NCBI RefSeq assembly: GCF_037975245.1
Contig: NC_092566.1
Location: forward strand, 1,426,001 to 1,490,000
DNA from: Apostichopus japonicus
Taxonomy: Eukaryota; Echinodermata; Holothuroidea; Aspidochirotida; Stichopodidae
Reading direction: 5' to 3'
Length of the DNA stretch: 64,000 nt
Shown here: piece by piece, positions 18,079-64,000 of the stretch
Layout of the letters: the number at the start of each line of letters is the position of its first letter
Position numbering within the stretch: position 1 is the first letter of the stretch
The notes under the pieces: generated by a model
The model's input: only the letters and a program-made list of their open reading frames with translations
Told to the model about the DNA's origin: nothing
Databases searched by the model: none
Made by a program: the position numbers and the translations under genes

Positions 18079-18590
18079 CCTGTTGGTTTAAGGTAATACC
18101 TAAGTTAATCTATCACATAGAAAACAACATTTGGTTCAATCTTTATAGCCAAAAGTGGTGCTACCCTACTTACCAACTTGCAAACCCCAAGGTGTTGAGA
18201 CAGAGAACTAACATACAATCTGACAGATGAACAATATGTATAAAAATTTACTGAAACTTACAACAGGAATGAGATACTGTCAGGCCCAGTTTCACAAACT
18301 TAATTATTACCATTTTGAGCTCTTACTAAATCTTAGTAAAGTCACAATCATCTATCTGGAAAGGAATTTAAAGGTACAGACACCAATCAAAACAGATCAG
18401 TCTACAAACAATGGTACCTAAGCTATCCTTACAAACATGTTTTTGAAGCTACAACATTGCAGAGAAAAAACATTAGTATTGCAAAGAGAGAGATCTGTAC
18501 ATTAACATGCTGTAACTGGAGTTTCCTTTACTGTAAAGATTTATAAAATGACATAATTTACTTAGTTTCTTTTTTTGTTACTGTAGTACT

Positions 18591-38644: not shown

Positions 38645-38886
38645 CTACACCTGTAGCCAATATGGTGTATACTTTGGCCACCTAATCGATGGATTTTGAG
38701 AAAACATCAAAGATGAATTTAAACCCTCAAACCTTGCATTCTTTGTGGAATTTACTTCTCTTTCCTTACACCTGTCTCCAACCAATATATGGACTCCAAT
38801 CCATCTAACTTGCAATAGTTGGTAAAAAACTTTACGCCCGCACATATCAACTTCAGGGTCAATTTTTCTTACATACTTCCTCTTCC
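38645..38886 (-). CDS. Pax2/5/8-like: Derived Pax gene exon 8 (possible terminal exon)
   Basis: The exon is 242 bp, acceptor CACACTGCAG, phase 1 in, ending TAG. It encodes [20 protein letters not shown], then [20 protein letters not shown], then a further 40 residues ending YTPYWLQV. It is basic and aromatic with no recognised domain and is unlike known Pax C-termini. Support is the phase match with exon 7, the acceptor and an 80-codon open frame. This is the weakest exon of the model. Confidence 0.4.
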
Positions 38887-41800
38887 CTGCAGTGTGATTT
38901 CCCATCTGCTGGAACTTGGTTTATTCTTAAATTTTTGATAAAGTTTTCTGAAGTCCTTATCTATATCAGAAATATAATATTTCTTTATGCGGGTGGTGTA
39001 TGGTGATGTTCTTTCCTTACATATATACAGTACTAAGGACTCTTTACATACCAGTTTTAACATGACAGTCATCGGTCTGTTTGGTTGTGGTTAAGAGAAC
39101 GCTAGCTGGTTTCAATTCTGCGAATGTGGTATCTTCCCCCTCTTTGTCTGTATAGATAAATAAATTAAAAAGCAATTAATGTTAAGACAGAACCAGAATT
39201 TTCACGCAGTAGTAACCATCCTCAACATTTCTAACTGAAAACATTTCCGCTAATTTGATAAATTCATTCGTCCTCATGTACTTTTACAGGTAAGTTCATC
39301 ATATTGAACTATTACAACACCAAGCAATCGGCGTTTACTGACCAATTCTTTATTCATCAATTTAGTAAATATAAGGTTTAATATCGACTAACCTGTGCCA
39401 TGCTTTCCACTGGAAACATGTTTATCTGCGGTAACCGATAAATCTTTTGCAATCGATTCAACCGCGGTAGGAGCAGCTGGGTTTAGTCCTGCCTCGGTCG
39501 ATGTGTACGAAATCGGTATCTGTGGGTATGATAATAAATGAATATTCATGCAGTGTTGAAAATTAGCTGATTACTTCAAGTCACGAAAAATCGGTGTCTG
39601 GTCTGGTTTTATTTTCTCTGTCTCCATTCTATCTTATGCACGGAGTGGCACTGTTAAGGAAGTGGGAGGCTCACAGGGCGGGACCTGTCCACAGTTACTG
39701 TACCAACACAATTAAAGACTAACTGTGTCACAAGTTTGTAGGTCCAAAAAGAAAGTAATAGGACAGAATTCCTTCTATTGAAACTCCTGTGGATATACTT
39801 TGGTCATGTGCATGTGTGCTCCAGACACCTATATGACATATGGACGCATATGGACAAATCAAATGTAGTTACCACCTCAAAAAAACATACCGTTCAAGGT
39901 TCTCAAGTGAGGGTCTTCCAGGAGGAACTTAAAACTTTGAAAATGCAGAATATTGTTTGATAGAGATTATACCAATTTAAGACAGTAGTAGGTTATCATG
40001 CTGGCTAACTATAGAGTCAAAAAATATATCGCCAAGGATATATTTCACTGACCTTAAATTGTTGGTCTGCGGAGCTGGCTAGAGCAAGATCCTTCACCCA
40101 ACTATCGTAATAGTTTTTCAACGTCTGGTCCTGTTCTGTCGTCTGCTCCGCAGGCTTAAGGGCTGCCTGGAGGTATTTCCAGTATTCGAGTTGCTGTTTT
40201 GTGGCGGCGTCGTTGGTAATTGCTGACGTCATTGTCGAGGAAGCCACTGCCGCGGCTACACTGTTCTGTGCGAAGGCAACACTGTGTAAGGACTTAAGAA
40301 TCTCTAAATGTTGATTGGCCATGTCAGTCCTTCCCCTTTCTTGGTAGGCGGCCATGTTTGCTAAATCGCTCGCCGTGTAGCCCGTAGCCGTCTGCGCTTC
40401 AGAGACTTCGCATTCTTCCACTTTTGTCGGCGATAACACTGAAGTAATAATGAAATAAGACAAAAGTTACATGCCAAGACGGCCGCCAAACAACAACGTG
40501 TAATCAAGCCAAATTGGATAAAAAACTTAACATAATGACTAATCGACTCACAATGTTGTACATATATAATTTTGTTAACATTTATTTTATATACTATAAT
40601 GCCTAATTACTGTACACAAAGAGTGATATAAGTGCGTCTTTTTGGAGAGCACAACTGAGTTTTAACGTTAGGAACGTTAGGTGTACACTACATTAATGGT
40701 ATTTTGGACTAAATATGAGCGGAACAATTGCTCACTCTGTTATTGCTATGATCATAGATAATATACATACATTAATGGATAATATACATGCATGAATTTA
40801 ACAAACAACAAACTTGTACTCCGCCACAGTTGCGGACATTTACATATGGGGAGGGGGTTGGGATGTGGTGGAGAGAGAGGGGGAGTAGTGGGAATGTGGT
40901 GGAGAAAGAGAGAGAGGAGGGAGGGCGGGCAAATGTCGTACGGAACAGTGACGAATTATCAGCGTAAGCTCCAAAACGGTATCTATGCAAAAGCAAACTT
41001 GGCAGTCAAAGTAAGTATACTTAATAACAGCTGTATTGCATACCTTCTGACTTAACGGATGGAGACACTTTCGGCTTTGCTACCGTCATTTGAACGAACT
41101 GCCCAGTTGTATCAAGGAGTCTCTTCAGGGACACAGCTGTCTGTGGTACAGCGGCGGTATTCCCTTGTAAGGTCGCTGTGACACCGTTGACCGGAGACGT
41201 CGTTGGGACGTGGATTGGGATAGAGGGAGCTGTTCCTTGATTAGGCGATGCGAGGCTAAAATAACTCTGGTATTGACCGGCAAGAGATGATGAGGACTGA
41301 AAATGAGAGACTGGAAGGGTGTGAATTTGGCCGCCTTGTTGAACCTGGATTTGAGTTTGGCCTTGATTCTGAGTTTGAGCTTGCGCTGCAACCGCCTGAG
41401 CGTGTGCTTGGGCTGCCTGTGCTTGGGCTTGAAGCTCGGCTTGTGCCTGAGCCTGAGCCTGTGCGGCCTGCGCGGCCTGTGCTTGCAGAACTGAAGCCTG
41501 TGCCACGGCCTCGAAGAAAGCTCTGTCTATCATATTTCGAGATGTATATGAATCATCATGCATGTCCTGTCCTGCAGTGTTCTGTTGAGTTTTATTATTC
41601 TTGACGGTAAGGGAGGCGTCATACCTCACGTAGCCGTTCACAATTTTATTCCGAAGAATTCTGGTATGAACAAAAGAGAAAATAAAACCAAATTAATAGT
41701 TGGAATTAATATGAGAACACAATAGAACAAAAGCCCGTGCCCAGCCCCTCCGTCCGGCACCACTTACAATTCATCTGGGACCTAAAGTTTCATAGTCTTT

Positions 41801-44800
41801 CTCAATGGCCACGCTGTGTTTTTAAATATCCATGTTATTAAACAATAACTGTAAAAGAATGATAGGTTAATGAACCAGCATAATGACGAACTGGAAACAA
41901 TTGTTCTTCTTACGTAGTCTTCCCTTCTCATCTGTGTGGATCAGTGCTAAGCTGTTCGGATCTTTTGACCCTTTGCCTCTCCTTTATAGACATAGGGATC
42001 ATATCCATCTTCTGAAAAGGGGTAGCACCTCCTCCAACCCATCTTGACAAGGAACCCAATTTGTTTACAACTTGCTTCCAAAAAAAACGTTCCTCTTGCA
42101 AAAATAGCCTTTGTGTCTTTCGTTTAAACTATAATAGTTACTAATAGTAACTATAATAGTAACTATAATAGTAACTATAATAGTAACTATAATAGTAACT
42201 ATAATAGTAACTATAATACTAACTATAATAGTAACTATAATAGTAACTATAATAGTAACTATAATAGTAACTATAATAGTAACTATAAAAGTAACTATAA
42301 TAGTAACTATAATAGTAACTATAAAAGTAACTATAATAGTAACTATAATAGTAACTATAATAGTAACTATAATAGTAACTATAATAGTAACTATAAAAGT
42401 AACTATAATAGTAACTATAATAGTAACTATAATACTAACTATAATAGTAACTATAATAGTTACTATAATAGTAACTATAATAGTAACTATAATACTAACT
42501 ATAATAGTAACTATAATAGTAACTATAATAGTAACTATAATAGTAACTATAATAGTAACTATAATAGTTACTATAATAGTAACTATAATAGTAACTATAA
42601 TAGTAACTATAATACTAACTATAATAGTAACTATAATAGTAACTATAATAGTAACTATAATAGTAACTATAATAGTAACTATAATAGTAACTATAATAGT
42701 AACTATAATAGTACTGTCGAGACCTACCTGTTGATAGAGCTGACACTTGGTACCGATTCTTTATCGCAGACATTTTCTTGAAGGAGTTGATCCCTAATCT
42801 CCCATGCGAAGATGGTCGGATTGTCGCGTTTGTACTCCGCTATCTTATCGACAACGTCACGTGTTGCAACTTTAGGTTTGCTGCCACCTATAACGCCTGG
42901 TTTGATGGACCCCGTCTCATAAAACCTGTAACAAGATTTGATGCAAACTTGTTTGTAATATGAGAGAAAGGAACCAATCAAAACATTTCCACTTTGTGAA
43001 TCAACACGTGTCTCTTTCTCGCACCTTTCCTTCATCAAATTCAACTATTACCAGATATATAAATTGGTTAATGACTCAGAAATTGACCTTCGAAAATGAG
43101 AAAATTTTACATAATTTTATATTAATTAGGAGTGACGTCATGTAACGTCATGCATATTCTACAAGAAAAGAAAGTACTTTTCGCACCTCTGGGGTCTGAC
43201 TGATCGGCAATAAGAGAACTTTCGTTTCGTTTTTCGAAAACACATCCAGTGGCCTTACCACCGCCAAGCTCCTATTCGTGTTCTACTCTAGATTTCTCTG
43301 ACCCGACACACGTGAGGTAGCCGGGGGTGGGGGGGGGGCAGGAGGAACGAGGAGGGGTATATATAGCCCTTAATAATATTTATATAGGAGGGAATTTTGA
43401 GAGAGCCGGTTATTTCATCGCTGTAGAACATTGTGTCTCCTGCCTATACCCCTTCTTAATGCCTATGTCGAGATCACTGTCATAAAGATTCACGTTCCAA
43501 AACAAAAAGGGATTGGGTTTGTCGGGCGAAAAAAAACAGATAAAAGGATAGTAGATAGAATTATTAGATTATTTATGTATTCTGTTGATGTCAAGTTAGG
43601 GTCATCGATTATAGCATATCAAATGAGGGTCCATTGGTTGTATAAGAAACTTGAACAGGGAATATGGGATATTGTCAATAAGTAACTTTCCACACACAAA
43701 AAAAAGAGAGAGTGTTGTTTATTCTGTCGAGAAGCAATGATGTTCCAAAATAGTATTACAAACCTGACGAGAATTTTGCTGACACATCCATGGGAGACTT
43801 TCAGCTGTCTGGAGATATCGCAAGGACGAACACCTTTCTTAGCCAATTCTACAATCTGGTGTCTCACGAAGTTTGGAAGGGGCCTACCATTGGCGAACTG
43901 GCCTCCTAGCTGATTCACTCCGTCCGATTCTGTAACGTAAAGGAGGGAAAAATATTAAAATTATACTAACATATTAAGGATATTATAAAGTACACGTACG
44001 TTTTCGTCCTTTGAATTTAAATTTGCAGAATAACAAATATGTTTGCTGCAAATTTTATGTTTTATAAAGGGACTATGGAATTTATGGGCCTCTCGGTAGA
44101 ATTGACCTAGATGATGGGTCACTCGGTAGAATTCCCAGACGAAAAAAAAAATGCATACACGCATCATAACATATCAGTAACTATTTACCACAATAGATCC
44201 GAACAATTCTAAAAGACGTGGCGTTTAAAAGCCTGAGCTATTATACAACAAAGTTTATGCACTATTTATGTTTTTCTCGAAGTTCTTGCAATGCTACACA
44301 CGCAACGTTTAGTTGCCTTTGCAAAATAACAAAGGACATCGTCAGCAAGTTGTAACTAAATGGAATTTCGAACGACGTGGTGCGCCGGGGTGCTGGTACT
44401 TACAATAGCGTACGACTTTGATCAAAAAGATCAAAGATATTTCATGGATCACTATTTCTTTAGAGAGAACAGTGACAATGCCTCGCTGATCAATAGGAGG
44501 CCCCCTTAAAGGATGATATCGTGCTCAAAAACAAAATATAATTTTATTATTCTGTACATATCTTTTTTTTTTTAATTATGGTTTCTTTATATATATATAA
44601 ATATTTCAGTTAACGGTTTCTATTTGTCCGATAGTTTGGTAAAGATCCATAAAGGACAGTATACACTTAAAATTGAGCTTATGTGAATAGTAGTCCACTT
44701 ATGCTATGTCTAGTAACGTTATGTGGCCAAGTGCGTACACATAGAGACCGAACAAGAATAGACGCCATTTTGTTTTTCCTAAAATGTGACCGTAGACTGG

Positions 44801-47800
44801 TTGATTAATGGCATAAACTAGACTGTTGTTTACAAAACTAAGAAGTTGAGCAAGATTTTTACATTTGTGGTAGGTGATGTGTTACTCAAGACTTACACTC
44901 ATACTTCAGTTTCATTATTACTCCAAATAACGCGTTTATTTTCCTCTTCCATAGAACTTTTCCTGATGTGTTGTCCTGAAGTTTAAATTACTTATACACT
45001 GTAGGCACGTGTATACTATCGGTAGATATGTATACCACAATACGCCCGTGAGAACAACACATGCAGCTACCATTCATTTTAATTGTGCAGAAATTGGACT
45101 TGTACAGATTCCCACCAAGCCGCCTCCCTCCCTCGTATAATCCTAACCTCAGATAAAAAAAACACAGTATAGTCCCGTTGGCACCAAGTTTCAATGGTAG
45201 TTCGTCACCCACCCACCCCCCCCCGACCCCACCCACCCCAGCCTATGCTTGAGCTTGTGACTCAGCTGATGCCCGTACCTCTCTTCATTCGAATAAATTG
45301 AATAATGCAGTAAATAACAAGAAATAACAACAACTAAAAGGTTTTACGACTAACTATAATATACACTCGTGATTACGGAGAGTAAAACATACACAACCTG
45401 ACAGTGGTTTCGAAGTCAAAGTAGATCTTAATTACAAGATTATTTCGCTTTCAACTTGGAGCTAAATTTGGTAAGATTTCAAATTTTAGGAAACAGTGGA
45501 ATTCAGTCCCTATAAATGAGTGAACATCCTACCTTGGGCACTCTCAGAATAGAGAAACTCACTGTTTAGAATTAAAGGGTGTAAGTCGGGAGGGGGGGGG
45601 GGGGACGGTAATTGGAAACAGACCTGTATGCCTAAAAATTCTCCTAACTCTGGATGAGCATGGAAGCTGATCCGTATTTTCCTGAGAGCAATTTAATCCG
45701 AGATTGTCCGACGTAAATTGTCCACTGTTTTCCTGTAATAGGTCCATGGCACGTATAAAACCAAACCAAACTCGAAAATGAATTGAAGTCACCTCACAAC
45801 AACCTTCAAATATCTTCCTTTTACTACAATCCATTCCACCACTCTCCTATAATCGCTTCTGCTCAACCTTCAACTCCATGTACCAATTATTTCCCCCATT
45901 TTGGGTCTTTTTGATCCGAATTTACCGGTCCTAAGCGTCTTTCATTCACACCCTTCTATAGCAATTGAAGTCTTGAGGTCATACCTTGATCCATTGTGGA
46001 ATTTTCAAGGAAATTTGCCTTTTGAAAAGGAGTCACTAGCTGGTGAAATAGTTAATACCTGTGTTAACCGGTAGTCAATGACAACTACATATAAAACTTG
46101 CCTATGAACATCCACAGAACGACACCCGGAATTAACAGATATAGACCGTTTTGTGTTAGAATTAAATCGTTTAAGAGATGTCCCCCATATTGGTTTAGAA
46201 AACAAAAGTTTTGCATGTTTTCATGTGTACCCCATCGATTATTTAAACTAAGCAAACAGTTTTATTCTACTGGAAGCCATATGACGCGGCATATTAGTCA
46301 CAAAAGTCGAAAATGGTAAAATCTGTTGCACTATTTAGTACCGTGTGCAAAACAATTTGTGTAGAGAATGTTCGAGGGTGCAACCAAAACTTATAGATAT
46401 ATCAAATCATAAGAAAAATTAAATGCTTTAATAAAAAAAAATAGCAAAGAAGAAGAGGATAGCAACTTCAGTTATTAAGCTATACGGATGACGACCAGGT
46501 CGTTAGTTACCTATGGGTGGAGTATCGAAGCCAAAGACTAAGACCTATATAACGTTCACATCGTGTGTGAAATACCTATAGGCCCTCCACGGATAGCACT
46601 TTTTGGAATGGACGGGAAGGGAACGAGGGGTTTGGAAGGAAACACTAAATACTGTATACTTTATCAACAAACGCGCTGTATGACTTCTGTATGGTAGAAC
46701 CGGTAAGAAGACGGTATTGATAATAACGGTCTTTGGGGGCGCACTGCAACAATGTTACCACTTTTGTAGGCTAGGTAGATCAAAGTGCGTATGTGTGTAG
46801 GAGGCAGGTAAGAGAGTAATGATGCTTCCGGTTTGTCAGTCGAAAATGTAAGACATGGAAGGTTTCTCATCCGGACTAGAAGTGAAGACGTTGGCAGCCT
46901 CTAGTTTTCAACTATCCACTCAATAGTGTGGATTTGGCATTCATTACTTAACAAACCGTCTTTGGTCCTGTGCAGACGGAAGTAAATCTCAGTTCCTGTA
47001 CACAAACATCACGCACCCCTTTAACCGTATACAACTCAATACGGTAATAGGACCATCATCTGAGCATTAGATTCAACTCAATTCATAACGACAGAAATGA
47101 ATTGAACAAACAGACGACGGCGGTACAGTAAGTGGGATTATCTAAGCTCACAACAAGATCCACTCGGGATCTCCTAAGCACTTTACAAGCGAACGTCCTT
47201 GAGGGACATTACAGTCAGAATAACCACTATTCTACGAAACCAGTCGAGCTAATATTCTTTCCTTTCCAAAGAAAATAATTGCTTCTTGACAGGCGAAGGA
47301 TTTTCCTTCTTATAAATGGATGACAAAGATCCCTCATCCATGGATATTAAAATTTGCATTGTTTTTTTGTGCTAGGAGCCAAGTAAACAAACGAATTATA
47401 AATATAAATAAATATAAATGAACGAAAATAATTCTTATTTTGATAGATTTCCGCGTGAACTATATAGCAACAAAAAATCATATAGAAAAAAAAAATCATA
47501 TTGAAAATAAAAAATCATATAGAATAGTGAAATATTGTGTATCAATTGAACTCCCAACAGTGTATATATCATGCATGGGTTATAATGTTCACTAGTATAA
47601 TGAAATAAATCTGTACAGTTTCTGTGAGGAGACAGGTAAGCATGGGCTTCTGTTATCCACTCTGGTTGTAAATCAGTATCACCTGATGTATTAAGTCAGA
47701 ACATGTGACATTTACTTGCACTGCAGGGGATGAAGAAATGTTTGCAGTATTTGTGAGATTACCCAGTAAACTTATAGCCTACCCTTTGCAGGTCACACAA

Positions 47801-48790
47801 TGTTGACCAATTACAACAGTTACTAACATGTCCCGTAAATTTTATTTGATTTCTCCTCAAGTAGCCTAAACGTCATACCACTATATGAGTTGGTGGGGTG
47901 TGTGGCTGGGTGGGAGAGGGGGTAGGCCACGGGTTAGTTGGATAGGATAGCTGGTAATAAGTGTTTCCTGAGTTGAAACTTCCTTAAACTTTGTAACTGT
48001 GCTTATAAGATCATATAATGCAATTTATACAGAATGTTCGACGATGCATGTCGAAACTTTAGTCGTGTAAATAACTTAAGCTAACGCCTCGGCAAACTAA
48101 TAAAACTATGCAGTATATTTGTTTTTGGTATTGTCTTTTTTATCCAGACGTAGAAATGATCAGGTTCAAGGACTATCGAAAAACAAGAATTGTTTTGCCA
48201 TTTAGTTATTTTGCATGAGGTAGCTGATTATGACCGTGACACCTGACATGCATTTTGCTTTTTTCGCCTGGTCTTGTGGAATTATTCAAATAGAAATCCC
48301 CTGAATGCCTTTTGGAATTTTTTTTTTTTCCAGTCACGCACTGACAAACATCTTACCATTATTAAATAGTTAATCTACCCGGCTGTAAACTGGGCTTAAT
48401 TTCTATTGTATCTTTTTGTCGGCTCGATGAACCGTAACTAACAATATATTACCACACCACAAACGTTTCGATACTATCGGTAGGAAACCAAAAACAAAAT
48501 TCTTCAAACCTGATAAAAAAAAAAAACTATGAAAAGAAAAGGGGAAAAAATAAGAAAAATCAGAAATGTTTTTACTAAAATCTACAGGTATAAACTACCA
48601 AAGATATCAAAAGTATTAACAAATATATATCTTAGTCATCATTTCAATGCTCAGAATATTTTAGAAAGAAGGAAACGTTTAACTGACAGAAAGACAGACA
48701 TGCTAACATGCATACATGCATATAGACCGACACATACACTTTCATGTAAACAGACACATAGACATACAACCATGGTCATGGACATATGTT

Positions 48791-48842
<52 letters not shown>

Positions 48843-48957
48843 CCTATATATATGTATATATATATATGTATGTATATGTATATATATAAATGTATGTATG
48901 TATATATATATATAAATGTATGTATGTATATATATATATATATAAATGTATGTATGT

Positions 48958-49011
<54 letters not shown>

Positions 49012-51213: not shown

Positions 51214-51250
<37 letters not shown>

Positions 51251-54200
51251 AAACCGTTGATAAATTCTGAATAAGTTATTACACTGTGTTCCTACCTTCT
51301 TTCATTGTTCCTGTAGCCAAATTGCAATCTGTTAATGAAACGCTCTATCCAATTACGTCCATATTGCACGTTTACCAACCACTATACACTTATACACTGC
51401 GGGATGTTTCGTTCGTGGTGCCAACAGGACCCCTTCCGTCTTCCCCAAAGCTGCTACTGCATCAGACTGACCCACAGTTATCTTAGTCTAAAGAGCCTTA
51501 GCAAACACTGAGTTATAACACTGTCCACTTTTGTCGGGTTCAGTAAATAACCATAAGTAAATAGATCGCTTGAGTTTTTATCGCTCGTCAAATAATCTTG
51601 TAACAGCCAGGGAAAGTTTTAGAAAGAGACTATAGGGCAACAGTTTTATATGTCCTGTGTGTTTTTATAATATTAATATATTTGATCTTCAATTCTTTTA
51701 ACAAGGAAACTAAATTCCCACCTTCTTTCTCTCTCTATTCATGTTGGATTGAATAACCATCTCTCTCTCACGCTCTAACGCTGAAGCTTTATGCACTCTT
51801 CAATTCTTGTACGGTACTGGGAGGCGGTAAAGTAAATAGTACCACAAATTTCATGGGTGTTTTGTTTTCAAGGAAACTTTTCTCTTAAAGAAATTGTCAC
51901 TTTAGGTGCACCTTTTTTTCCTCTTTCTTTTTCATTAATAGCAGACATTTTTGTTGGTTCACCATATTAGTTTCGATTCCATTGAGTAGCGAGTTAGCAA
52001 CACGTGTATCTCTGAGCTGTAATCTAAAGGCTGTCGCGGCGGAAGAGGGTTGAACCTAGAGGGGGATTGGTAGGGGGGGGGGTTGTCAGAAACATCAAGA
52101 AGCAGTGGAACAGATGACTTTGCTTTGAAGACGAAAATTACAAAGAGCACATTTTCATTACTTTTGCGTTTTGCATTTTCAACAAAAAAGGCACATTTTT
52201 TGTTAATAACAAAAGTAGCACATGTTAGTCCAAAATGGAAAAACTCGGGGTCACGCTTTGTCTTACTGTAGAAAAATCGGATGGAGTGATTAGAAAGGGA
52301 AAATGAAAATCCAGCATACATATCCAAACCAGTTTCAATAGTTACAAAAAAATCAAAGACTGTGGAATATCTCAAATTTGCCTTATGCATCATGTAATAT
52401 ACAACAAGTGTTTGGGTCGACGATAATTAATCCGTTAAGTAATTATAAGTTTTGAGGCACATTTGGAGGGGGGGGGGGGGGTGGAAGCCCAAACACTTAT
52501 TTGAATGAATTCTCCTTAGCTTTGGTATTTAAACTCGATATTTCTCAATAACACTGTTAGGACTTTCTGTGAAGCTGCCTCGCACCTGCATACAGTATTT
52601 ACGACCAGTGACGTTTGCCGGTTTTAACCAATGCTACGGTATAAAGAAACAACTTCAGTAAATATATGAATTGCACAAAAGACAAGGCGTCTATACCAGT
52701 TAGATATGTGGGTTGGGTTATTCTTACATAAGGAAGTTATTTTTCAGTTTTTCATATCCTGCCCAAAAAATACAAAACCAAAAAACCTACACTACATTCA
52801 AACCTGAATTAGTTATTTTGCGAAATCTGCACAACTGCAAATTATTAGATCTTGGCCGATACGATAAAGCACCATTTTCATTGGAATTGCCAAACCTTGA
52901 GTATTTTCTGCTTTGAACAGCCCAATAGGAAAGTATAACATATGCCTATATGTATATATCCCAAGTCCTTAACCGTATTTACTTATCAACTATAACTGCG
53001 TCTTGTAAACTGACTCATACGGAGAACAATTTCAATTTTTTTCCCGTTATTTCACACTTTAGATTGACACCACAGATACAAACTGAACAAGGTCACACAG
53101 TTTGGTTCAATGTTGACGCAATGCCATTTCACACCTGATACCATGTGACTTGGTGACTATAGTCGCGTCCACTCGACACCTCTGTCCACACACCTTAATG
53201 GGTCACTTCCGGTGCAGTGTGCACCATTTCGTCATAAACCTCTACATCTATACATGAAGCTTCAAAGAATAACAGAACATAAAAGAACCAGATATCAACC
53301 AATGAACTACATGAATGATAACACATTCAATGGATAATAACTTTCGTAATCCAGGGAGTTGTTGAGGGTCCCTTTCAACATTTCCATCAGAATGTCATAA
53401 ATGAGCTTGGAAGATCCATGAAAATTCTCTCGTAAATTGCGTTTTGTAAGTGATTGAACGTAGATTCAGATACAGAAAGTATGGACCGATACGACTTGCA
53501 AGTTGACGGCCACGCCCCCCCCCCCCCCCACCGCCTGTACTGATATTCATGAAGCTGGGACACTCTTCTAGTTCAGATTGTATGGTCGGGGTTGATAAAC
53601 AGATCTTGATGAATATTTAGAAAACGAATTGTCAATAACAGAAGCTTAATCAAAAACAAAACAAGTACAGAACATGAATAAGCACCATTGTGTACATTCA
53701 ACAGATACAGAAGAAGGGCTAAAATATATTATCTGTCATTGAAGCGACATAGTGCCGCCTACACGATTACGTGGTGCGTGGCCGTCGATCAAGCTATGAT
53801 AATGGACGCAGCGTAACTTAGGCAAAGTTTGGATTACTTACTATAGATGACCAAACATGGTACATTTATTCTAACCTATCCATTCTTGGAATTCCTCCAT
53901 GATATTTTTATTATTATTAGAGAAACACAACCATAAATAGAACATTTATGGAAATTTATGAAGAGACTGTCAAATGTAATTGCAATATAAGGAAAGTCAC
54001 CCCTCCCCCCCCTACAGGTAACAGTCTGGGCACAAAAAAACAAACATCATGATCCACTCTTAACCCCCACCAGTCCCCTTAACATGGAGGCTATAACCAT
54101 TTGATCACTCTGAAGGTGCTACTGTCACGTAAAGAATTACGAGTTTCTTCGGGAATCGAAACTTCACATGATTTCGGTTAAAGCAGGGAGTTGTTATGGA

Positions 54201-55495
54201 AGGTTGGTTAGAGATCTACAGTGTAGGTTATACCAGGGAGTTGTAATGGAATAACAACTTCCTGGTTATACCCTGTATTTAGTGTAACTTCGCAATATGC
54301 AACATACAGAGAACCAACAGAACTGTGGAAATAGTCAACGGTTTCGTGTTGAATCTGTTACGCTGGAAAGTTCACGTCTATACTTGACAAAGTTTCCATA
54401 CTATGGCCTATAGTTTGGGATTCTTTAACCACTATATACAACAAGGGTCTTATTTTACATTGTAGGATGCACTTAGAAGTATAGCCTAAGTGTACGCATT
54501 TTGAATAAAAGATTGAATCGTTCAACATTGTTTCTATAAAAACAAGGCTATATCGGTATCCATGCGTGGTACTGTTGCACATAGCTATGTAATCATATCA
54601 CAGTATTTTTATAAATGGCCTAACCAGTAACCCAGTGTGCTTTGGAAGATCTTGTAATAAAATGCTCCTTTTTCTTGTACAGCAGTAGGAGTTTGATCTG
54701 AATGCTGATCGATACTAAAATCACATTCAAAGAACGAAATACAACTGAATGTTTTGTAAATTTTTCAAGTTTTTGTTGTTGTAAATAAATGTTAAATGTT
54801 TGACGAAAAGTTAAAACCAACAATCAAATTAATACAAGTATTTGTGCTCTTTAGCATTCATTTGATAAAACAAAACATCTGGTACAAAACATCTGGTCTT
54901 ACTGGTATAAATGAAATGTTATTTGGAAAAATACTCAAAATAAAATAAAACTGTTAGCAAACTGCTTATCCACTAGAGAGCCTGTGTAAGAGAATGTGTA
55001 AAAGTAAGTTGGCCTGACGTTTCGATCCTAGCAGGATCTCCTTCAAAGGCTAAATGACAAGTAACAGTAACAGAAGTGGAAAATACTCGTAAGAAGTTTG
55101 GTAAAATTAGGAAAACACCACTAAAAATCCTGTTGTAATTTGCAGATATTGTTTCGGTTTAATATAATAAGAGGAACCTCCTTTTCTCATGCCATCTTCA
55201 TCAAGAAAGAGAAAGAAAGGGAGAGGGGGGGGGGGTGGAGATACGGAGAGAGCAACATTTGAACTAACAGAAGGATGACATGCAATTGACCTTACTCATC
55301 ATCAACATGAAATAAAAAATATCAAAAATATCAATAACTTGAATGATACTTACCCTTTTTTGAAAGTCTATGTTGTTTGACCATTCTTCCAGCTTTCCTT
55401 TGTAGGTGATCCTGTGAAGACTGAGGTAAACCGGCCGAAGGCATTCCCGAATGAATACTTGTATCCATGGCGATCGACATTTTCTCTTCTCTCAT
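38645..55495 (-). CDS. Pax2/5/8-like: Derived Pax2/5/8-class paired-domain transcription factor, eight coding exons
   Basis: Joined exons (minus strand): 55495-55354, 43929-43764, 42925-42728, 41660-41044, 40438-40053, 39519-39393, 39147-39052, 38886-38645. All are GT-AG with matching phases (1, 2, 2, 1, 0, 1, 1). The paired domain spans about residues 49-174 and includes [50 protein letters not shown] and [14 protein letters not shown]. The second half and the 166- and 198-bp exons match, as I recall, vertebrate Pax2/5/8. There is no homeodomain and no YSINGILG-type octapeptide. After the paired domain come a Gln-Ala tract (about residues 223-285) and a long Ser/Thr/Ala/Gln-rich region. The predicted length is about 657 aa, or about 579 if it ends in exon 7. 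It should act as a sequence-specific nuclear regulator. An in-frame TAG lies upstream of the ATG. The last exon is the least certain. Sea urchin PaxA is one possible relative. Confidence 0.85.
39052..39147 (-). CDS. Pax2/5/8-like: Derived Pax gene exon 7
   Basis: The exon is 96 bp, acceptor CTATACAG, phase 1 in and out. It encodes [20 protein letters not shown], then [12 protein letters not shown]. If unspliced, the frame ends two codons later (GM, stop), but the same bases form a strong donor, G|GTATGTAAAG, that joins exon 8 in phase. The true 3' end therefore could be here or in exon 8. Confidence 0.6.
39393..39519 (-). CDS. Pax2/5/8-like: Derived Pax gene exon 6
   Basis: The exon is 127 bp, acceptor ACCCACAG, donor GTTAGT, phase 0 in and phase 1 out. 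It encodes [20 protein letters not shown], then [20 protein letters not shown]. No domain is recognised. It is accepted because the splice sites and both phases fit and the base composition is gene-like against AT-rich surroundings. Confidence 0.65.
40053..40438 (-). CDS. Pax2/5/8-like: Derived Pax gene exon 5: Ala/Gln-rich region of unknown function
   Basis: The exon has about 129 codons, acceptor ATTACTTCAG, donor GTCAGT, phase 1 in and phase 0 out. It starts [20 protein letters not shown] and includes [20 protein letters not shown] and [20 protein letters not shown], which look helical and amphipathic, then [15 protein letters not shown] do not recognise a named domain. GC content and base choice fit coding sequence better than the flanks. 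Confidence 0.8.
41044..41660 (-). CDS. Pax2/5/8-like: Derived Pax gene exon 4: end of the paired domain and Gln-Ala-rich region
   Basis: The exon has 205 codons, acceptor TTCATACCAG, donor GTATGC, phase 2 in and phase 1 out. It opens ILRNK, completing SSINRILRNK. ILRNK is closer to Pax1/9 or Pox-type endings than to the IIRTK of vertebrate Pax2/5/8. A Gln-Ala tract follows, with QA dipeptide runs interspersed with Glu and His, then [13 protein letters not shown] and a Ser/Thr/Pro-rich part. Such tracts are common in activation domains. SPVNG near the middle is only a very weak echo of the octapeptide. Confidence 0.9.
42126..42712. repeat. 12-bp microsatellite (TAACTATAATAG)n next to the paired-domain exon 3 donor
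   Basis: About 49 copies of TAACTATAATAG, period 12, with sporadic variants (AAAAG, ATACT, GTTAC). It ends at about 42712, while the donor GTAGGT of exon 3 occupies 42727-42722. The repeat therefore starts about ten bases into intron 3 in the direction of transcription. The transcript would read (CUAUUAUAGUUA)n. Confidence 0.95.
42728..42925 (-). CDS. Pax2/5/8-like: Derived Pax gene exon 3: linker and RED half of the paired domain
   Basis: The exon is 198 bp, acceptor TGTTACAG, donor GTAGGT, phase 2 in and out. It encodes [20 protein letters not shown], then [20 protein letters not shown], then [20 protein letters not shown], then [19 protein letters not shown] and [10 protein letters not shown] are Pax2/5/8-type rather than Pax1/9, Pax3/7 or Pax4/6. 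A 12-bp microsatellite begins about 10 bases inside the downstream intron. Confidence 0.95.
43764..43929 (-). CDS. Pax2/5/8-like: Derived Pax gene exon 2: PAI half of the paired domain
   Basis: The exon is 166 bp, acceptor GTTACAG, donor GTTTGT, phase 1 in and phase 2 out. It encodes [19 protein letters not shown], then [20 protein letters not shown], then [15 protein letters not shown]. The beta-hairpin and first helix-turn-helix are intact. The usual GGVFVNGRPLP reads [11 protein letters not shown] here, two substitutions in a normally invariant stretch that contacts DNA. The donor GTTTGT is weaker than the others. Confidence 0.95.
48790..49050. repeat. (TA)n/(TATG)n microsatellite
   Basis: Long TATATA runs are interrupted by blocks of AAATGTATGTATGTATATAT, repeated three times, and GGCCTATATATATG. 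The open frames on both strands through it (poly Tyr-Ile) are artefacts. It lies in intron 1 of the derived Pax gene. Confidence 0.95.
51025..51244. repeat. (TA)n tract followed by (GA)n tract
   Basis: Imperfect ATATATAAT runs span about 51025-51075. A clean (GA)n of about 13 repeats lies at 51217-51244. These are simple sequence only, within intron 1 of the derived Pax gene. Confidence 0.9.
54001..54195. repeat. Diverged duplicate of 59970-60140
   Basis: The run TCTGGGCACAAAAAAACAAAC, then CTTGATCCACTC-like text, then CCCCCACC, then ACATGATTTCGGTTAAAGC parallels 59972-60132 (TCTGGGCACAAAAAACCAAAC, CTTGATCCACTCAGC, CCCCCACC, ACATGATCTTGGTTAAAAGC) in the same order. One copy is in intron 1 of the derived Pax gene and the other in the spacer upstream of it. 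It may be a dispersed repeat or a remnant of the duplication that made the Pax pair. Confidence 0.55.
54995..55080. mobile_element. Second copy of the element found in ZCCHC7 intron 3
   Basis: From TGTGTAAAAGTAAGTTGGCCTGACGTTTCG through GACAAGTAACAGTAACAGAAG this matches 15522-15605 with only a few changes. It lies in intron 1 of the derived Pax gene. The 40 bases at 55011-55050 can fold as nested inverted repeats, GGCCT with AGGCC-type ends and GATCCT with AGGATC. Beyond 55080 the two copies diverge. Confidence 0.8.
55354..55495 (-). CDS. Pax2/5/8-like: Derived Pax gene exon 1: N-terminal leader
   Basis: The exon has 47 codons plus one base, donor G|GTAAGT, phase 1. It starts [20 protein letters not shown] and ends HRLSKK, with the final G joining AA of exon 2 to make Glu before the paired domain. 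A second in-frame Met lies at codon 6 (55480). An in-frame TAG lies in the upstream 5' region. The assignment rests on the good donor, the matching phase and the typical short leader exon of Pax genes; the leader itself is not conserved. Intron 1 is about 11.4 kb. Confidence 0.7.
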
Positions 55496-55499
55496 GGAC

Positions 55500-58400
55500 G
55501 GGCAAAGATGATAAACAAGGTGGAGCTATGTTTTCTTCGCCTCTTCTCGCGATAAAAAAAATGTCACTTTAAATCATTTGATTAGCGACAGCTTAATGCA
55601 AAACAATATACACAAGAAACCACGTAGTGTTATGATTTCATGAGGGAGTTGTAAGAGATCCTACAGAATCGTAACTTTTTTTCTTATAATTTCTCTAAAT
55701 TTTTTTCTTCAAATGTCAACAACGTAAGTCCTCTGTTAGGATATAGGGTACCCGAGGGATGGGTCGGAGGCGATTTGGTTTTAAAAAAAAAAATTAAAAA
55801 GTTTCAGAGACTGGTGAAATAAATTGCAATGTCTTATGAAAGAGTTGATATATTTCCATTGATCAGCAATTAAACATTGGGTTGTTTCTCTTGAATTCAG
55901 AGCCAAAAAACAACAAATCACACGTGGTTTGTCTTGCCTACTCGGTCGAATCAACCAGCTGTTTCTTAGTTGACTAGTTGAGAAATTCCCGTGAAACAGT
56001 TCTTAGAAGTCGCTTAGCCAAGCGTAGTACAAGCGTTTGGAATTTGTTTGCCTTTTCCGTAAGACGCTTCACGGGTTACTTCTTGAAGCGTTGCGCTGGT
56101 CACACAGTTACGCCACTCAACTGTTTAAGAATCGTCAAAATATACTTCAACGGGTTAGTCTGCAGCAGAGAGCCTTGACAGTAACGGCTGAAACTTTCCA
56201 AAACGGGTAGAAAATTGCTGCCAGGAAAATTACTATTAGCGAAAAAAAGACACAACTTCTAAGGAGACACGCCCAGCACAACCTGTTAGTAATATATACG
56301 CACCTGTTACAGTTAAGACAGTGAAGAGAACGACTTCCGCCTTAAAAAAAATTATTCGAATTGGATTTCACAAAAGTTGCCGAAGTAACCCGATTCTTTG
56401 TTTTCGGGGAGACGATTTATCTTTAACCTTCTGCTAATTCACTTCTTATTTTTATAGTACAGTCATACAATTTTACACTATTATCTGTGGCAGTTCCTTC
56501 CAATACCGTGAACTGCTAAAATGTTTCAGTACTTCTGTGTGCAATTAATAGCACCGTCACAGGGCTTATACAGTGAACACACACACCCCATCTATACACA
56601 AATCCTAGTTGAATATTCAATCAAGTTTGGAATAATAGAAGGGCGAAAAAGAAAAGCAGTCAATTCTATAGGACAATAGACAAATAGCAGAAGCCGGACA
56701 ATAGAGGGGTTCGGCTAAAAGGAACTTCCAAAGAATGTAATTACGTGTGGTGAAAAAATAAAGTTGTCGCTATTAGCTATTGTACAACTGTGTCAGCACG
56801 GAATGGCTGCATAGAGTACATATTGCGTATATATACACTGGCCGTGTAATCTCGTTGGGTATGGCTGGTTTAGGGTGATTATAAGGAAGAGATAAAACCC
56901 AAACGAGGTTATTTATGAAACGCTTAGCAGCCAACTGGATTTAAGCTTCGTGGATGAGTCTATTGAGGACCCTTAAAATCTGCTTTTTAAATCTGAAACC
57001 ACGGGGGTTGGAAGAGAATGAAAGAAGAAAGGACCCTGGGTAATCTGTGCCCCTTAAAGTATTCCAGTTTCTTAAGTTTGATTGGAATAACTCAAAAGTA
57101 ACTGCTTAATCGAGGTACTTAAGTGTCCTCGCAGAGATTGCAATCTCTTGGGGACCACAGCTTTTTAAGAGAGTTATTAACAATCCAGTGAAGTAAAAGT
57201 TTGGCTACGAATATTCTGATCGGATTATAGCTGAATGGGAATTCGAAGTGGGGCGGAATGGGGTGGGCGGGGTTCTGGGAAGGGGGTTCTAGGGACGTGT
57301 GGTTCTGAGGTGGGAGGTGATAATTTGTGTAAATATTGGGGTAGAATGTGGTTTTGAAAAAATAATGGACGTGACACAGTGTTCGAGTTGGGGAGGGAGG
57401 GGGTGAGGGGAAGGGGTTGGAAACTTGGGTTAGTGATCTAATTTATTGGTCATCTCATCAAAGTGTTAATAAAATAAGCCACTAACTAACCTGTTATTAC
57501 TATTAGCGTATAAACCCTTTGAACTTGAGTTTTATATGGGTGAGGGGGAGGGGGTATGGGAGTTGATGTTTGTATGAGGGGCTGTTGAAATGGTATTCAC
57601 AACTTCAAACGGTGAATAACAAGAAACCATCAAGACCTAACGTGGATATGGTGTATAAAAATGTTGCGGTTGTCCGCAAAATAAATGAAACAGAAATTGA
57701 AAAGTACAGGTGACTTATTCTAACAGAAAACTGAACCCTGTATTTGCACAGCCTAATTATGGCATGGCAGGCAATCACAATATAGTATAGTCATACTTGT
57801 CTCATATGTAAATAATAGCCTAACCTGTGGAACAATTCCTTTCTTTCCTTTCTTCGCCCATTTTTTTTCTGTTTTTTTTGTGTCCAGATTTTTGCTGTTT
57901 ACTCAAACCTGGATATATAGCTCAGCTATTTCTATTCACCATTCATCGGATGAGCGAACAAAAAAGTTTAAAAGTAAGAAGGTCGCGCTTTAAATTAACC
58001 AACGGGGCGTGACAGATTGGACTTCAAGGGGCTTCAAGTTCCCTTTAGAAATTTTCAGATTATCAAAGATTTAAAAAAAAAAAAAAAAAAACTTTAACAT
58101 CCGTGTGAAGTCGTAATGGCTGAAATACTCGACAGGGATTCTAAGTTTGAACGTGTCCTTCTTTTACGAGTGTTGAGGATGGCCTGGGGAGAAAAGGGGC
58201 GGGGGAGGGGGGGTAAGCATAATAAGAAACATATGATGGATGAGGTAGGTGAAGGGGGGGGGGGGCACTTAGTATAGGAAAATGTTGGCTTGAATAATAA
58301 AATAGAAAATTCAGAGATAATGAGATGAGAAATGGTGGAGAATTAAGTGTGGGAATAAATAGGGGTGGTTGGGAGGGGAGAGGAGGGTGTGTGGCCAGAG

Positions 58401-61400
58401 ATAAAGGGAATTACGGTGTCATTACCGACAAAGGTGTGTGGGGGGGGGGCATGGAAGAGGTGTGTACAACCCAAGTGGTACTACGATTGGTTATTAAGGC
58501 CGAGCAATTGGTAGCATGGAGATTCATACACATCACAATTGCATGGAAAATACTTCACCGGTGGGGAAAGGAGAGGGGGGGGGGGGAATTTTCTCATTTC
58601 CCCATCTTTGATCAGATTTTAAGCTAATTGTGCAAAATGATTTAAAAAATTATAGAGCAATTTCTGGAACCGAGATCTTGATTGAAACTAATTTGTAGTG
58701 ACATGGCTGACCATTATTTAATCGTCTAGCATATTTCTAGTAAAAAACGAATGTTCTTATATATATATGTAATAAAGATAAAATAAGTAAAAATAATAAT
58801 CGGATTAACCTTAACAATTGACAAAATAACGTTTTTTTTATCCTTTTATTTGTGACTCAAGTTTCTTGAATTCATTATCGAACGAAATTAATTCTTATTG
58901 TGATAACTTAACAATTACCGGAAGTGAAAATAATAGACACAAGTTGAAAACTAATAATATGAGCAAATAATATCTCTATACAATAGAGATACAGGTTACA
59001 CATAGCAGCCTCATTATCTGATTTTTTTTATTCTTTAAGAAATAACTGTGTTTTTTTATTTAATAATTACCATATTGAAATGATATCTTATGTCATGCAA
59101 TGACACATAAACACAAAGTTTTATAACATTAGTTTTTTTTTTGTTTTACGTCAGTTCACGTCCGACCAAGATACAAAGGTGATTGAACAATAAAAACAGT
59201 TACGAAAAAATAAAATAAAGGGAAAAAGGAAAGAAAGAAAAATATATTAATATAAGAAAAGGAAAAACGAGGAGCAAAATATAGTCAAATGTTTGTTGTG
59301 ACCATGGTGGGCTTACAATGGAGTATTGTATGAATTTAATATAATGAAGAAATACATTGACAAGGCATGCTTGGTTATTATGCAAGTATACTACAACACA
59401 TTTAAAGAACAGACCAATACGATACAAAAAAGGAAAAAACACAAATACATCGATCTTCTATATAAATCCATCTTTCCATTTTGTATTACAAAAAAGAAAA
59501 GAAAACGCCATTCTAAGAAAGAGAATTTTTTAAAAGAAATATTTATCAGATAAATATTTGTGTTGATTATATTTTAGAAATGAAAGGTGGGCTAGATTGC
59601 TTTGTAAACATTAAATTGGTGGAATTCGTTTGATTTTCTTTTCAATTCTTCAGAAAATTCGGTTTCAGTCATACATAAACATATTTAACTAATTTGAAGT
59701 GGTTTTATTCCACGTCTTAATATATTCTCTCTTATAATTAGTGCATTGTTTTTGTCTGTATGATAAGAAATATGTTTTTCTTGCCAATATATAAAAAATG
59801 AGTCAAGTAGATGGGAATTTTCCTTTAACAGGTAAATGACAATAATAACTCGTGTTTCTGTTTATTGTATGCAACGCAGGCTAGGCCTACATACATCTGA
59901 TACGTAAGTTCGGTAGGATCAAGGAAGTTCATTTTGTCAACAAATATATATATATGTGCGTTTGAAGAGTATATTCTGGGCACAAAAAACCAAACTACTT
60001 GATCCACTCAGCTCCACATCAGCCCCCACCCCCCCCCCCGCCTTAAACCGAGACTGTAACCACGTGGACATGACGGTGTTACGTCTGTTCAGGGAATAGA
60101 TGCTACACATGATCTTGGTTAAAAGCTGACAGCGATCTTACAGTTTATCTGAAAAGAACAGATACTATACACGTCATCTTATAGCATAAAGGCCGAGAAG
60201 CCGAGCAGCCGAGAAGCCGACAGTCAAATATATGTAACTTGATGGTCAATTCCATACATCTGCAGACTGGAGACACCACGATGCCAACCTGTGTAACTTT
60301 GCTTTAAGTGTTTGTTTCACTTACCACAAGTAACGAATGTTTTTTGTTTTATTTCCCGGCATGCTCTAGGTGGTGACATTGACAGCAATGCGAATGATAT
60401 AGACGCAGGGATGTTGTTTGTTTCAGTTAAGTAGAACCTATAACCAGGTTATATTTCTATCCATTATTTTGAAGGACAGTGCAAAGTATATTCGTATTTG
60501 GCATATATGGAAATACATTCAACGTTAAGAAGGTATACAATATGAGGTGTATGTATGTCTTGCTTGTGACACGTAATTGTAACGTAAATACTGTGTTCCT
60601 CGGCATACCAGGAAAATGCACGCATAAAATAACACCCTTGGAAAACGAACTCGGCGAAGTAATGAAATATGGTAAGATCATCAAAATATATATATCAGTG
60701 TTTACATTATGATTAAATCTAACAGAAAAAGTCTTGAAAATGCGTTGGTTTATGCACAAATTTGTGAGAAACAGGAATTAATGTTTGTAAAATATATACC
60801 GAACACAAAACACAAATAAACTTAAAATCAAAATAACGCCATACTTTTACCGTAACTATATATGCGTTCATAACTATGTATTTTTTATCTGTTCCCATTG
60901 GGAAACTTTTGGAAAACTTCCTTCACCTATTCGCCCCTGCTGTCCTCCCCTCCCATTCCGGTCCCCGGTTACGTTGTTTGACGATAATAGTATATGGACC
61001 AAGCTCATGTCGATTTAGTATAAAAAAAAAAGAAGAAGCGAATGAGCAATGACGAAACTGGACTGAAATTTCATGAAAAAACACATTTTGAGAAGATTAA
61101 TTAAAGTAACTTTTGGTTAAAACTGGATTCTATCCAGTGACCTCACGATAATACAAAACACTGTATTCTCCTAACTCAGTTATCCATTTCTTAGTTGGTG
61201 GCGATTCCTTTCTTTGAACAGTGAGTAAAAACATGACCATAGCCTGTGCTATAACGTGGGAAGGTATAAGACACTTTGTGACGAAAGGAGACCGTTGCGA
61301 AGTTGAATCAAGAGTATATTATTGCAAAGCTACACCACGTTCATCTCTGCATTTTCCAATCAGGCCTAACTCAGAAAAAATGTTGCAATCCTCATTTCGC

Positions 61401-63610
61401 CCCCTCCCTTCCTTCACCACACCCCCTCCCTCCCTCTCTCCCAATCTCGCGAGTGTTTTGACAAGATTTACATAATCGCCTATCGAGAGTTTGTTACAAA
61501 CTATTTGGTCTGTGAAGTTACAGTCCACATGGACTTTTTATGCATAATAAGCAGTTGATAATTCCATACTATACATGCGTTATGTGAATCGTATGTCGGC
61601 CCCATTAATTCACACACAAAAGGTTGCCTTTTATACTCAGCTTTTGTTGGTAGAACTAACACCGACCCCAAATACGACACACACACACGTATACACGATA
61701 TGGACCCTGGCAAACGGATTTATGTACTACAGTCCTTGCAAACGATGATACATGACGTCACACAAGCCGTCTTGTTGACTTGTATATACGTTTAACGGTC
61801 GGATACCCCTGAAGAGGGAATTATTGTTAAATTATGAATTATGAGTAAATTCTGCAGACTTTGCCAACGTCATCAAACTGATACATCAAAACAGACCTAA
61901 ATTTACCTTCCCCCCCCCCTCCCTCAGGCAAAAAAAAGGTTAACAAGAACTGCTGATATACAAAACATATACAATTGAATACAGTATTGTCTCCGATTCC
62001 AGGTTAGCGATGATTGGAATAAAGAAATTGATAAAAATGGGTCCTAGTCATAGACACAAATGGATATGAATATTAAAAAAAGCTGGCATGATTAAATTAT
62101 CCCTTAACCTATTTATGTACAAATGTTAAACTCAAAATAAATTTAAGAAAAAAAAACTGACCATAGAGAAAGATCTAGGACAAAATGACAAGAGAAAAAA
62201 AAAAACAGAAAACCCCTTATATTGTCAATATCCTTGTTATATATGGATTGTAATATCAAAGATAGGGAATCCAAAAAAAAAATACCTTCAAAACAAATCG
62301 GTTTTTTCGATTTCGAATATTGCACGAGATAAAAACGAAGAATGTTTCTATGACAGTGATGTAGTAAACTTAAGTTTTTGAAACAATTTTCATCTGCTGT
62401 CGAATTCACTTTGAGGTAGACCGGCGTTTTTAAAGTCCATAGGGCCATAGTATAGAAGAATAGGATATACTAGTTTACATTTAGACCTATAGGCCTTTAC
62501 CTTTTCAACTTACTTTCGTGAAGAAAAAGAAAGCTATTTCCCTGAGGAAACTTAACAGCTTAGATTTAAAAGGTCTTGTTTTTGTTGCCAACAAAGAAAT
62601 GAAATCATGAAGGGAAAGTCCACACAATTATTAAAAACCTTGGCTTAAATGTCCAAGGACACCTTGATGGTGACGTTTAATATGTTTGTATAAAATAGTG
62701 CTAGAGAAAAAACAATAATTTTAGAAAAAAAAGTGAGTACCGTTAAAGATGAAATTAATGTTGTCACTTTTAGTGAACATTTTAAGTCCAAAGAGATAGA
62801 TTGTGAATGAAAAATGTTGACGATACGTCACCATGGAAACCTGGTCCCACTCTAAGGTATATCCCACTGACCGTCCGGATTTGTGACGTGTACGATCATG
62901 TTAATTTTATACTCGATGCAGTTTCTGTTGTTCTGAAAGAATATTTTACTTAAAAAATATCTGGATTCTAATATATGGCGAGTAAGATCATGAACAGATT
63001 ATCAAGCACGTTGATCAAAACAAATGCTTTGAGATTATGATTAGACTTTGATTCCCCTACTCCACCGGTGTTTGCACTTTGAATACACTGCAGGGTGCAC
63101 GCCCATATGCAAATGAGCACATCAGTGACGTCATTTTGATAATTTACATACGGTACATCAGATTGTGTAACTTCTCCGAGCAAATTTTGTGCACAAAAAC
63201 AGTTATCTTTCTGGTGTCGTCAGGTGTCGTCCTATGTATACGGTATCTTACAGTATTTACTGTTAAAGAAATTGTGATCACCGATTCCAAAACTGCCCAA
63301 AATATCTTCCTTACACAAATTTGTGTCTCAAATATTGGAGGTTAGTACTGCGGTTTGTCACAGCCAAATGTATAACTTGTAGCAATGCGAGATAAAAAGT
63401 TGTCAGGGGAGGGACAGGGGAAAGGCCGGGGGGGTGACTGTGGAAATGATTGGTTTATTGCCTACGTTCGGTATTTCAAAAAGTAACGAAATTACTGCAG
63501 TCTTCTTCGAAGTCAGGAAAGAAGTGGCGCGAACAGTTTTTTCCGCGTTTCTTACATACTTTTCTTCGTAGTGACGTATAGTGACGTCATTGTTTCTTGG
63601 CCAATATTCA
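55500..63610. other. Spacer between the two Pax genes, no coding exon seen
   Basis: The 8.1 kb between the derived Pax start (55495) and the terminal exon of the upstream Pax gene shows only short frames without domains. It has clustered G-runs on the plus strand (57240-57420, 57540-57560, 58195-58265, 58430-58590), C-runs (60028-60040, 61910-61922), a small GCCGAGAA repeat (60191-60226) and the 59970-60140 duplicate. The promoter and 5' untranslated region of the derived Pax gene must lie here, but I could not place a TATA box or start site. Confidence 0.5.
59970..60140. repeat. Partner copy of the 54001-54195 segment
   Basis: This is the second member of the diverged pair described at 54001-54195. 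It carries a C13-like run (60027-60040) where the other copy has CCCCCACCAG. It sits in the spacer between the two Pax genes. Confidence 0.55.
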
Positions 63611-63615
63611 TTTCA

Positions 63616-63621
63616 TTTATT
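63616..63621 (-). promoter_or_regulatory. Candidate poly(A) signal AATAAA after the Pax2/5/8 terminal exon
   Basis: The minus strand reads TAGCCAAATAAATG: a perfect AATAAA begins four bases after the stop codon. If used, the 3' untranslated region would be very short. More distal signals may be used instead. Confidence 0.35.
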
Positions 63622-63624
63622 TGG

Positions 63625-63746
63625 CTACTTAGAGATCAATGATTGCGGTGAGCTAAATCGCTGCCAGTCGTTGTAACCTGTTGGTACTGCCGAGAACTGT
63701 GAATGTGGGTTATACTGCATACTGGAAAACTGGGCACCGTAATCAC
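63625..63746 (-). CDS. Pax2/5/8: Terminal coding exon of an upstream Pax2/5/8 gene (partial, runs off the right edge)
   Basis: The exon is 122 bases from acceptor TTTGTAG to TAG, phase 1 in. It encodes DYGAQFSSMQYNPHSQFSAV, then PTGYNDWQRFSSPQSLISK. The pattern (E/Q)FS...Y.PH.Q(Y/F)...YN(D/E)..RFS.P..L parallels the conserved C-terminal transactivation end of vertebrate Pax2/5/8 (HPQYTAYNEAWRFSNPALL). The usual following SPYYYSA segment is missing, so the protein ends earlier. Earlier exons would lie beyond 64000. It is on the same strand as the derived Pax gene and 8.1 kb upstream of it, so the two stand head to tail. The short length makes this a motif-based call. Confidence 0.6.
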
Positions 63747-63886: not shown

Positions 63887-64000
63887 AGAGGAGAGGAGAG
63901 GGGAGGAGAGGGGGAGGAGAGGGGGAGGAGAGGGGGAGGAGAGGGGGAGGAGAGGGGAGGAGAGGGTAGGAGAGGGGGAGGAGAGGGGAGGAGAGAGGAA
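63887..64000. repeat. Purine-only minisatellite (GGGGGAGGAGA)n at the right edge
   Basis: GGAGGAGAGGGG units of 11-12 bases repeat to the window end with almost no pyrimidine on the plus strand. Such mirror-symmetric purine tracts can form triplex DNA, and the G-runs could form quadruplexes. It lies in the last intron of the upstream Pax2/5/8 gene if the terminal exon call is right. Confidence 0.9.

Follow-up and report, generated by a model that had tools for sequence, protein, structure and literature searches.

A canonical Pax2/5/8 gene and a probable fast-diverged tandem paralog in the sea cucumber Apostichopus japonicus

Does a paired-domain gene that lies directly behind a Pax2/5/8 gene in the sea cucumber Apostichopus japonicus descend from a tandem duplication, or does it have another origin? 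The question arises from a 64,000-nucleotide stretch of contig NC_092566.1 (the window), for which the initial annotation described a head-to-tail pair of Pax2/5/8-class genes, one canonical and cut by the window edge, the other derived; both labels proved correct. The two genes, here termed A and B, are arranged head to tail on the minus strand, with gene B inside the window and gene A mostly past its edge. We extended the sequence beyond the window to C6:1569000, yielding 143 kb without any N, and give positions past the edge as window-equivalent coordinates. The stop-bearing exon noted 8.1 kb upstream of B on the same strand is present at 63746-63625, the ATG of B lying 8,129 bp downstream of the A stop codon, and the paired-domain, octapeptide and half homeodomain exons that had been sought upstream of position 63746 were all found there. 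The exons of gene A are as follows.

118909-118867 (window-equivalent), minus strand: possible first exon, placed by splice pattern alone
93052-92887 (window-equivalent), minus strand: paired-domain exon, 166 bp
85689-85492 (window-equivalent), minus strand: paired-domain exon, 198 bp
83931-83747 (window-equivalent), minus strand: octapeptide exon, YSISGILG
68063-67888 (window-equivalent), minus strand: half homeodomain exon
67092-67005 (window-equivalent), minus strand: exon
65336-65232 (window-equivalent), minus strand: exon
63746-63625, minus strand: last exon, ending YNDWQRFSSPQSL(ISK*), that is, GYNDWQRFSSPQSLISK-stop

Gene A is a canonical Pax2/5/8 gene, with a paired domain of this class, an octapeptide and a half homeodomain, and in these three features it resembles PAX2, PAX5, PAX8 and Drosophila sv. 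Its paired domain is identical to that of human PAX5 at 119 of 127 positions (94%), and its homeodomain corresponds to positions 1-30 of the 57 in PF00046, at a score of 23.3 bits that barely passes the Pfam cut-off of 22.9. The supported exons other than the last span C6:1491232-1519052, beyond the window. The last predicted intron of A contains, just upstream of the last exon, an array of 11-bp and 21-bp GAGGAGAGGGG units (63893-63995).

The derived gene had been described as starting at 55495 and encoding a Pax2/5/8-type paired domain; the predicted start lies there on the minus strand, and the domain is present, on exons 43929-43764 and 42925-42728, in the following model.

55354..55495, minus strand: exon 1, start codon and donor G|GTAAGT in phase 1, predicted from splice site and phase
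43764..43929, minus strand: exon 2, 166 bp, N-terminal (PAI) half of the paired domain, matched by PF00292
42728..42925, minus strand: exon 3, 198 bp, linker and C-terminal (RED) half of the paired domain
41044..41660, minus strand: exon 4, predicted, RILRNK straight after SSINR, Ala/Gln-rich, octapeptide absent
40053..40438, minus strand: exon 5, predicted, contains YYDSWVK
39388..39519, minus strand: exon 6, proposed last exon with stop TAG, the weakest exon of the model

At 42127-42713 a 12-bp unit is repeated 49 times in tandem; the array starts 14 bp into B intron 3, just past the splice donor. The 3' limit of 38645 assigned to the gene earlier is unsupported; the last exon that can be joined in phase has its TAG stop at 39388. 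An open frame at 38648-38920 was considered as a B exon and rejected, having no phase or homology link to the gene. Elsewhere in the window, a 283-residue open frame of charged composition lies at 17239-18087 on the minus strand, with no Pfam match over the cut-off (best Pet20, E 0.043). In this genome, one ferritin exon agrees with PDB 7vhr and 7y74 at 49 of 49 residues, and papers on A. japonicus ferritin are listed for 7VHR.

The exons of B look coding, judging from third-position composition (GC3 of 0.475, compared with 0.465 for A and an overall GC of 0.357 in the region) and from their open frames; upon base shuffling, the in-frame openness of exon 4 was reached in 3 of 20000 trials and that of exon 5 in 44 of 20000. 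For reading B as a decaying gene or a product of misassembly, one could cite its status as a predicted model, its long branches in the two trees described below (0.26 and 0.32) and the 12-bp array 14 bp from its splice donor. We consider this reading highly improbable: the model runs through 546 codons to TAG with no stop or frameshift and with 5/5 introns GT-AG and in phase, though it was built by picking open, in-phase pieces; the 143 kb contain no N; and A and B differ too much to be alleles.

To place the two genes among their relatives, the genome was searched for paired domains with the Pfam model and with PAX9-type, PAX7-type and B queries. Every query returned the same six loci, with nine exon matches in all, and one extra match had an E value of 0.2 and two internal stops; the searches scored the best candidates, and a very diverged gene could escape them. 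The B paired-domain query gave only these nine exon matches at the six loci and thus no further copies of B. Besides the Pax2/5/8 gene A, we assign the C7 locus to Pax6, C20 to Poxn (or a Poxn-like gene) and C12 to eyegone (or an eyegone-like gene). No Pax3/7 gene was found among the best-scored candidates, and Pax3/7 is described as lost or absent in echinoderms (PMC12126913, PMC6010424, as far as their accessible parts state). The C3 locus (L032, C3:3116793-3116194, minus strand) encodes a divergent Pax protein; a single open frame holds its whole paired domain together with an eh1-like motif, SFAVEDLL. It is the top match of the PAX9 query (73%), its paired domain is identical to A and PAX2 at 96/127 positions versus 90/127 for PAX1/9, and it was left unplaced in the tree. 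The single-exon layout and eh1-like motif resemble those of PAX9, and C3 is perhaps, with little certainty, Pax1/9. A search for linkage of C3 with slc25a21 gave seven weak matches, none of them clear. Pax1/9 is listed for A. japonicus in the accessible part of PMC5638244.

The introns separate A and B from the remaining loci. Both genes have paired-domain exons of 166 and 198 bp and the same end phases, 1,2,2,1,0, of which the fourth and fifth depend on predicted exons. Two introns of A and B interrupt an Arg codon in phase 2: that of SKILxR is present in 0/4 of the other loci (C3, C7, C12 and C20), and that of SSINR in 0/3 of the others visible there (C3, C12 and C20; the next exon of C7 was not found, and this locus was left out of the count). 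The phase-1 intron before the paired domain occurs in C3 and C20 as well and is therefore not discriminating. In C3 a single exon carries the whole paired domain, and in C7 the frame stays open as far as residue 118 or so. The split in C20 follows GGSKPK; C12 has two, one at a distance of 4 bases from the SKILxR site of A and B, in phase 1, and another at NEG/VCN. The two exon lengths and the phases of A and B also apply to human PAX5. The position of the intron within the paired domain is described as totally conserved in chordate Pax2/5/8 genes (PMC2532684, in the part available).

Chance as the source of the paired domains in A and B is excluded by their matches to PF00292 (E 1.6e-74 and 4.7e-67, respectively), and the domain of B is complete. 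Across 127 alignment columns and comparison sequences that are mostly provisional, the B domain is closest to that of A (101/127, 80%), followed by PAX2 and PAX5 (100/127 each), sv (96), PAX8 (95), Poxn (91/127) and C20 (90/127), with all others at or below 89. Against four PDB sequences, the rank order was PAX5, PAX8, PAX6 and Prd. In a tree of 18 rows, built from the same largely provisional sequences, B grouped with Pax2/5/8 at a support of 83/86; PAX4 had been dropped from this tree as a long branch, and in a 19-row tree that included it, B fell outside a weak Pax2/5/8 group (70/69). The C12 row, a partial and misaligned domain, was absent from both trees, and its identity values in the comparison carry no meaning. 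Diagnostic columns in B matched Pax2/5/8 at 2/7, Pax3/7 at 2/15 and Poxn at 1/5. Placing B as sister to A alone was 2.5 log units worse (AU p 0.113). The 18-row tree agrees with B belonging to Pax2/5/8, yet it rules out no rival; 127 columns are too few to settle the tree.

These AU tests are also what speaks for B being a member of another class, Poxn, Pax6, Pax1/9 or Pax3/7, that came to lie beside Pax2/5/8 through rearrangement: placement with Poxn (p 0.17), Pax6 (0.105), Pax1/9 (0.094), C3 (0.092) or Pax3/7 (0.090) was in no case rejected. Such an origin nevertheless seems to us the most improbable of those weighed here, given the lower identity of B to these classes (91/127 for Poxn, 90/127 for C20 and 89 or fewer for the rest), a genome that already holds the Poxn-like C20 and the Pax6 gene C7, and the introns of C20 and C7, which differ as far as they are seen.

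Behind its paired domain, B departs from A. This part of the protein is 16% Ala and 12% Gln, and Pfam places no domain in it above cut-off; apart from the paired domain, B has four Pfam matches, all under their cut-offs (best Recombinase, E 0.0019). The octapeptide is absent, the best match in B being equalled by 1057/2000 shuffles; for the half homeodomain there was no Pfam homeodomain match, and the best motif match was equalled by 1976/2000 shuffles. Exons 4-6 were compared with A and PAX5 in 27 comparisons, none of them convincing (the best reached by 8/500 shuffles, the next by 18/500 and 21/500). The stretch YYDSWVK, set against YNDSWRF, was reached by 23/2000 shuffles and, being the best of three motifs, has a corrected value of about 0.035, so that its reading as a vestige of the C-terminus is only suggestive. 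Exon 5 found solely itself in a genome search, and when folded alone it gave helices at a mean pLDDT of 59, too uncertain for use. The half homeodomain is described as missing from lophotrochozoan Pax2/5/8 too (PMC5333810, in its accessible part). Because B is devoid of the octapeptide as well as the half homeodomain, we class it as a derived paralog and not as a standard Pax2/5/8 member.

Taken together, we favor, at a probability of roughly 80%, a reading of B as a tandem paralog of Pax2/5/8 that is intact and has diverged fast. A tandem duplication had been proposed in the initial annotation, and it is supported by the adjacency of the genes, their common strand, the equal lengths of their paired-domain exons, their shared introns and the paired domain of A being the nearest to that of B. 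In this model, a tandem duplication of A, or of the ancestor common to both genes, would have produced B. The exons of the paired domain and their intron positions would have been kept in B; octapeptide and half homeodomain would have disappeared, and the Ala/Gln-rich C-terminal part would have been gained or remodelled. The age of the duplication is unreadable from distance, since B stands at nearly the same distance from A as from human PAX2/5. A 72-bp non-coding match between the genes (93231-93165 versus 54107-54036, window-equivalent) was considered as a scar of the duplication and rejected; it has a GGGGTTAAGAGTGGATCA core, and the copy at A has at least 20 genome matches, itself included, which marks it as a dispersed repeat. 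The copy at B was not among the 20 matches listed for that of A.

The initial annotation also suggested that the derived gene may be of PaxA type, a divergent class known from sea urchins. The near-equal distances (101/127 to A and 100/127 to human PAX2/5) would also be expected if B were of PaxA/Pax-alpha type, in which case the duplication would be hundreds of millions of years old and no echinoderm event. The Pax-alpha/beta genes are divergent paired-domain genes, possibly near Pax2/5/8 and also reported from echinoderms (PMC5356317, PMC5333810): in the portions available, they are said to take in echinoderm and hemichordate sequences (PMC5356317), and a position of Pax-beta near Pax2/5/8 is suggested, though weakly supported in that paper's tree (PMC5333810). 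In addition, B and C3 are the two loci of the paired-domain inventory with no firm assignment to a family. We nonetheless hold a PaxA/Pax-alpha identity to be unlikely, for a fast young copy would give equal distances too, C3 could fill the role equally well, and B differs from Pax-alpha/beta in having 0/3 of the lophotrochozoan Pax-beta motifs in its model, though deuterostome Pax-alpha may differ in this respect. C3 remains the other candidate because it is nearer to Pax2/5/8 (96/127) than to Pax1/9 (90/127), and if A. japonicus has a PaxA/Pax-alpha gene, it should be B or C3, except if its divergence is too great for the searches or its locus falls outside the searched sequence. Slightly less probable again is the fuller proposal that B is the echinoderm Pax-alpha/PaxA and that its site behind Pax2/5/8 would be the scar of the duplication that founded this bilaterian subfamily. 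Among the literature matches listed, none concerned an echinoderm PaxA by its title, and the PaxA of PMC5333810 and PMC4901127 is, in the accessible text, cnidarian.

As a tandem paralog of Pax2/5/8, B may have kept the DNA recognition of its class. B retains without change the helix SHGCVSKIL and, in the RED half, VPSVSSINR; these, in the first and second half of the domain respectively, are the DNA-reading stretches of known paired-domain structures. At paired-domain positions 42, 44 and 47, which distinguish PAX5-type from PAX6-type recognition, A has Q-R-H and B has Q-K-H. From these stretches and residues, binding to Pax2/5/8-type sites is expected of B. The gene is presumably expressed. 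The octapeptide works in repression; without it, B might serve as an activator-type partner of A on targets common to both, or compete with A there, possibly under diverged regulation.

Comparison with described systems places the pair among several partial likenesses. B resembles Pax2/5/8 genes in its paired domain and in the introns and exon lengths of that domain, and differs from them in its missing octapeptide and half homeodomain and in a C-terminal part that has no recognisable relatives. Amphioxus Pax3/7a and Pax3/7b are, like A and B, a tandem pair in the same orientation, about 10 kb apart, with similar exon and domain structure and a discussion of unequal divergence in the accessible part of the source; they differ in belonging to another Pax class and in the similar domain structure of the two copies (PMC6010424). 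Urochordates have duplicated Pax2/5/8a and Pax2/5/8b genes, the b copies lacking an octapeptide at the expected position, comparable to B, but through an independent chordate event (PMC2532684, in the part available, which does not mention tandem linkage). Four genes are annotated as PAX2/5/8 in Holothuria leucospilota, hence more than one in a sea cucumber, although some may belong to other Pax classes and the comparison is by annotation only (PMC13403383, as accessible). The earlier statement that most invertebrate deuterostomes have a single Pax2/5/8 gene has exceptions, namely the urochordates with two and H. leucospilota with four reported. The literature matches listed, a set with subscription papers mostly outside its scope, included no description of an echinoderm in which two Pax2/5/8 genes are linked. 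The A/B pair is a new example; tandem Pax paralogs and Pax2/5/8 duplicates lacking the octapeptide at its usual place were already known.

For A. japonicus, S. purpuratus and A. planci, pax2 has been stated to be absent (PMC5638244, in the accessible part). Gene A bears on that statement: in this assembly it represents Pax2/5/8 with all three features, the paired domain, the octapeptide and the half homeodomain. After amphioxus Pax3/7, A and B would be another tandem pair of developmental regulators diverging unequally, with A 94% identical to human in its paired domain and B stripped of the octapeptide. If B-type genes adjoin Pax2/5/8 in other echinoderms or in hemichordates, the origin of PaxA/Pax-alpha would become a simple question of synteny.
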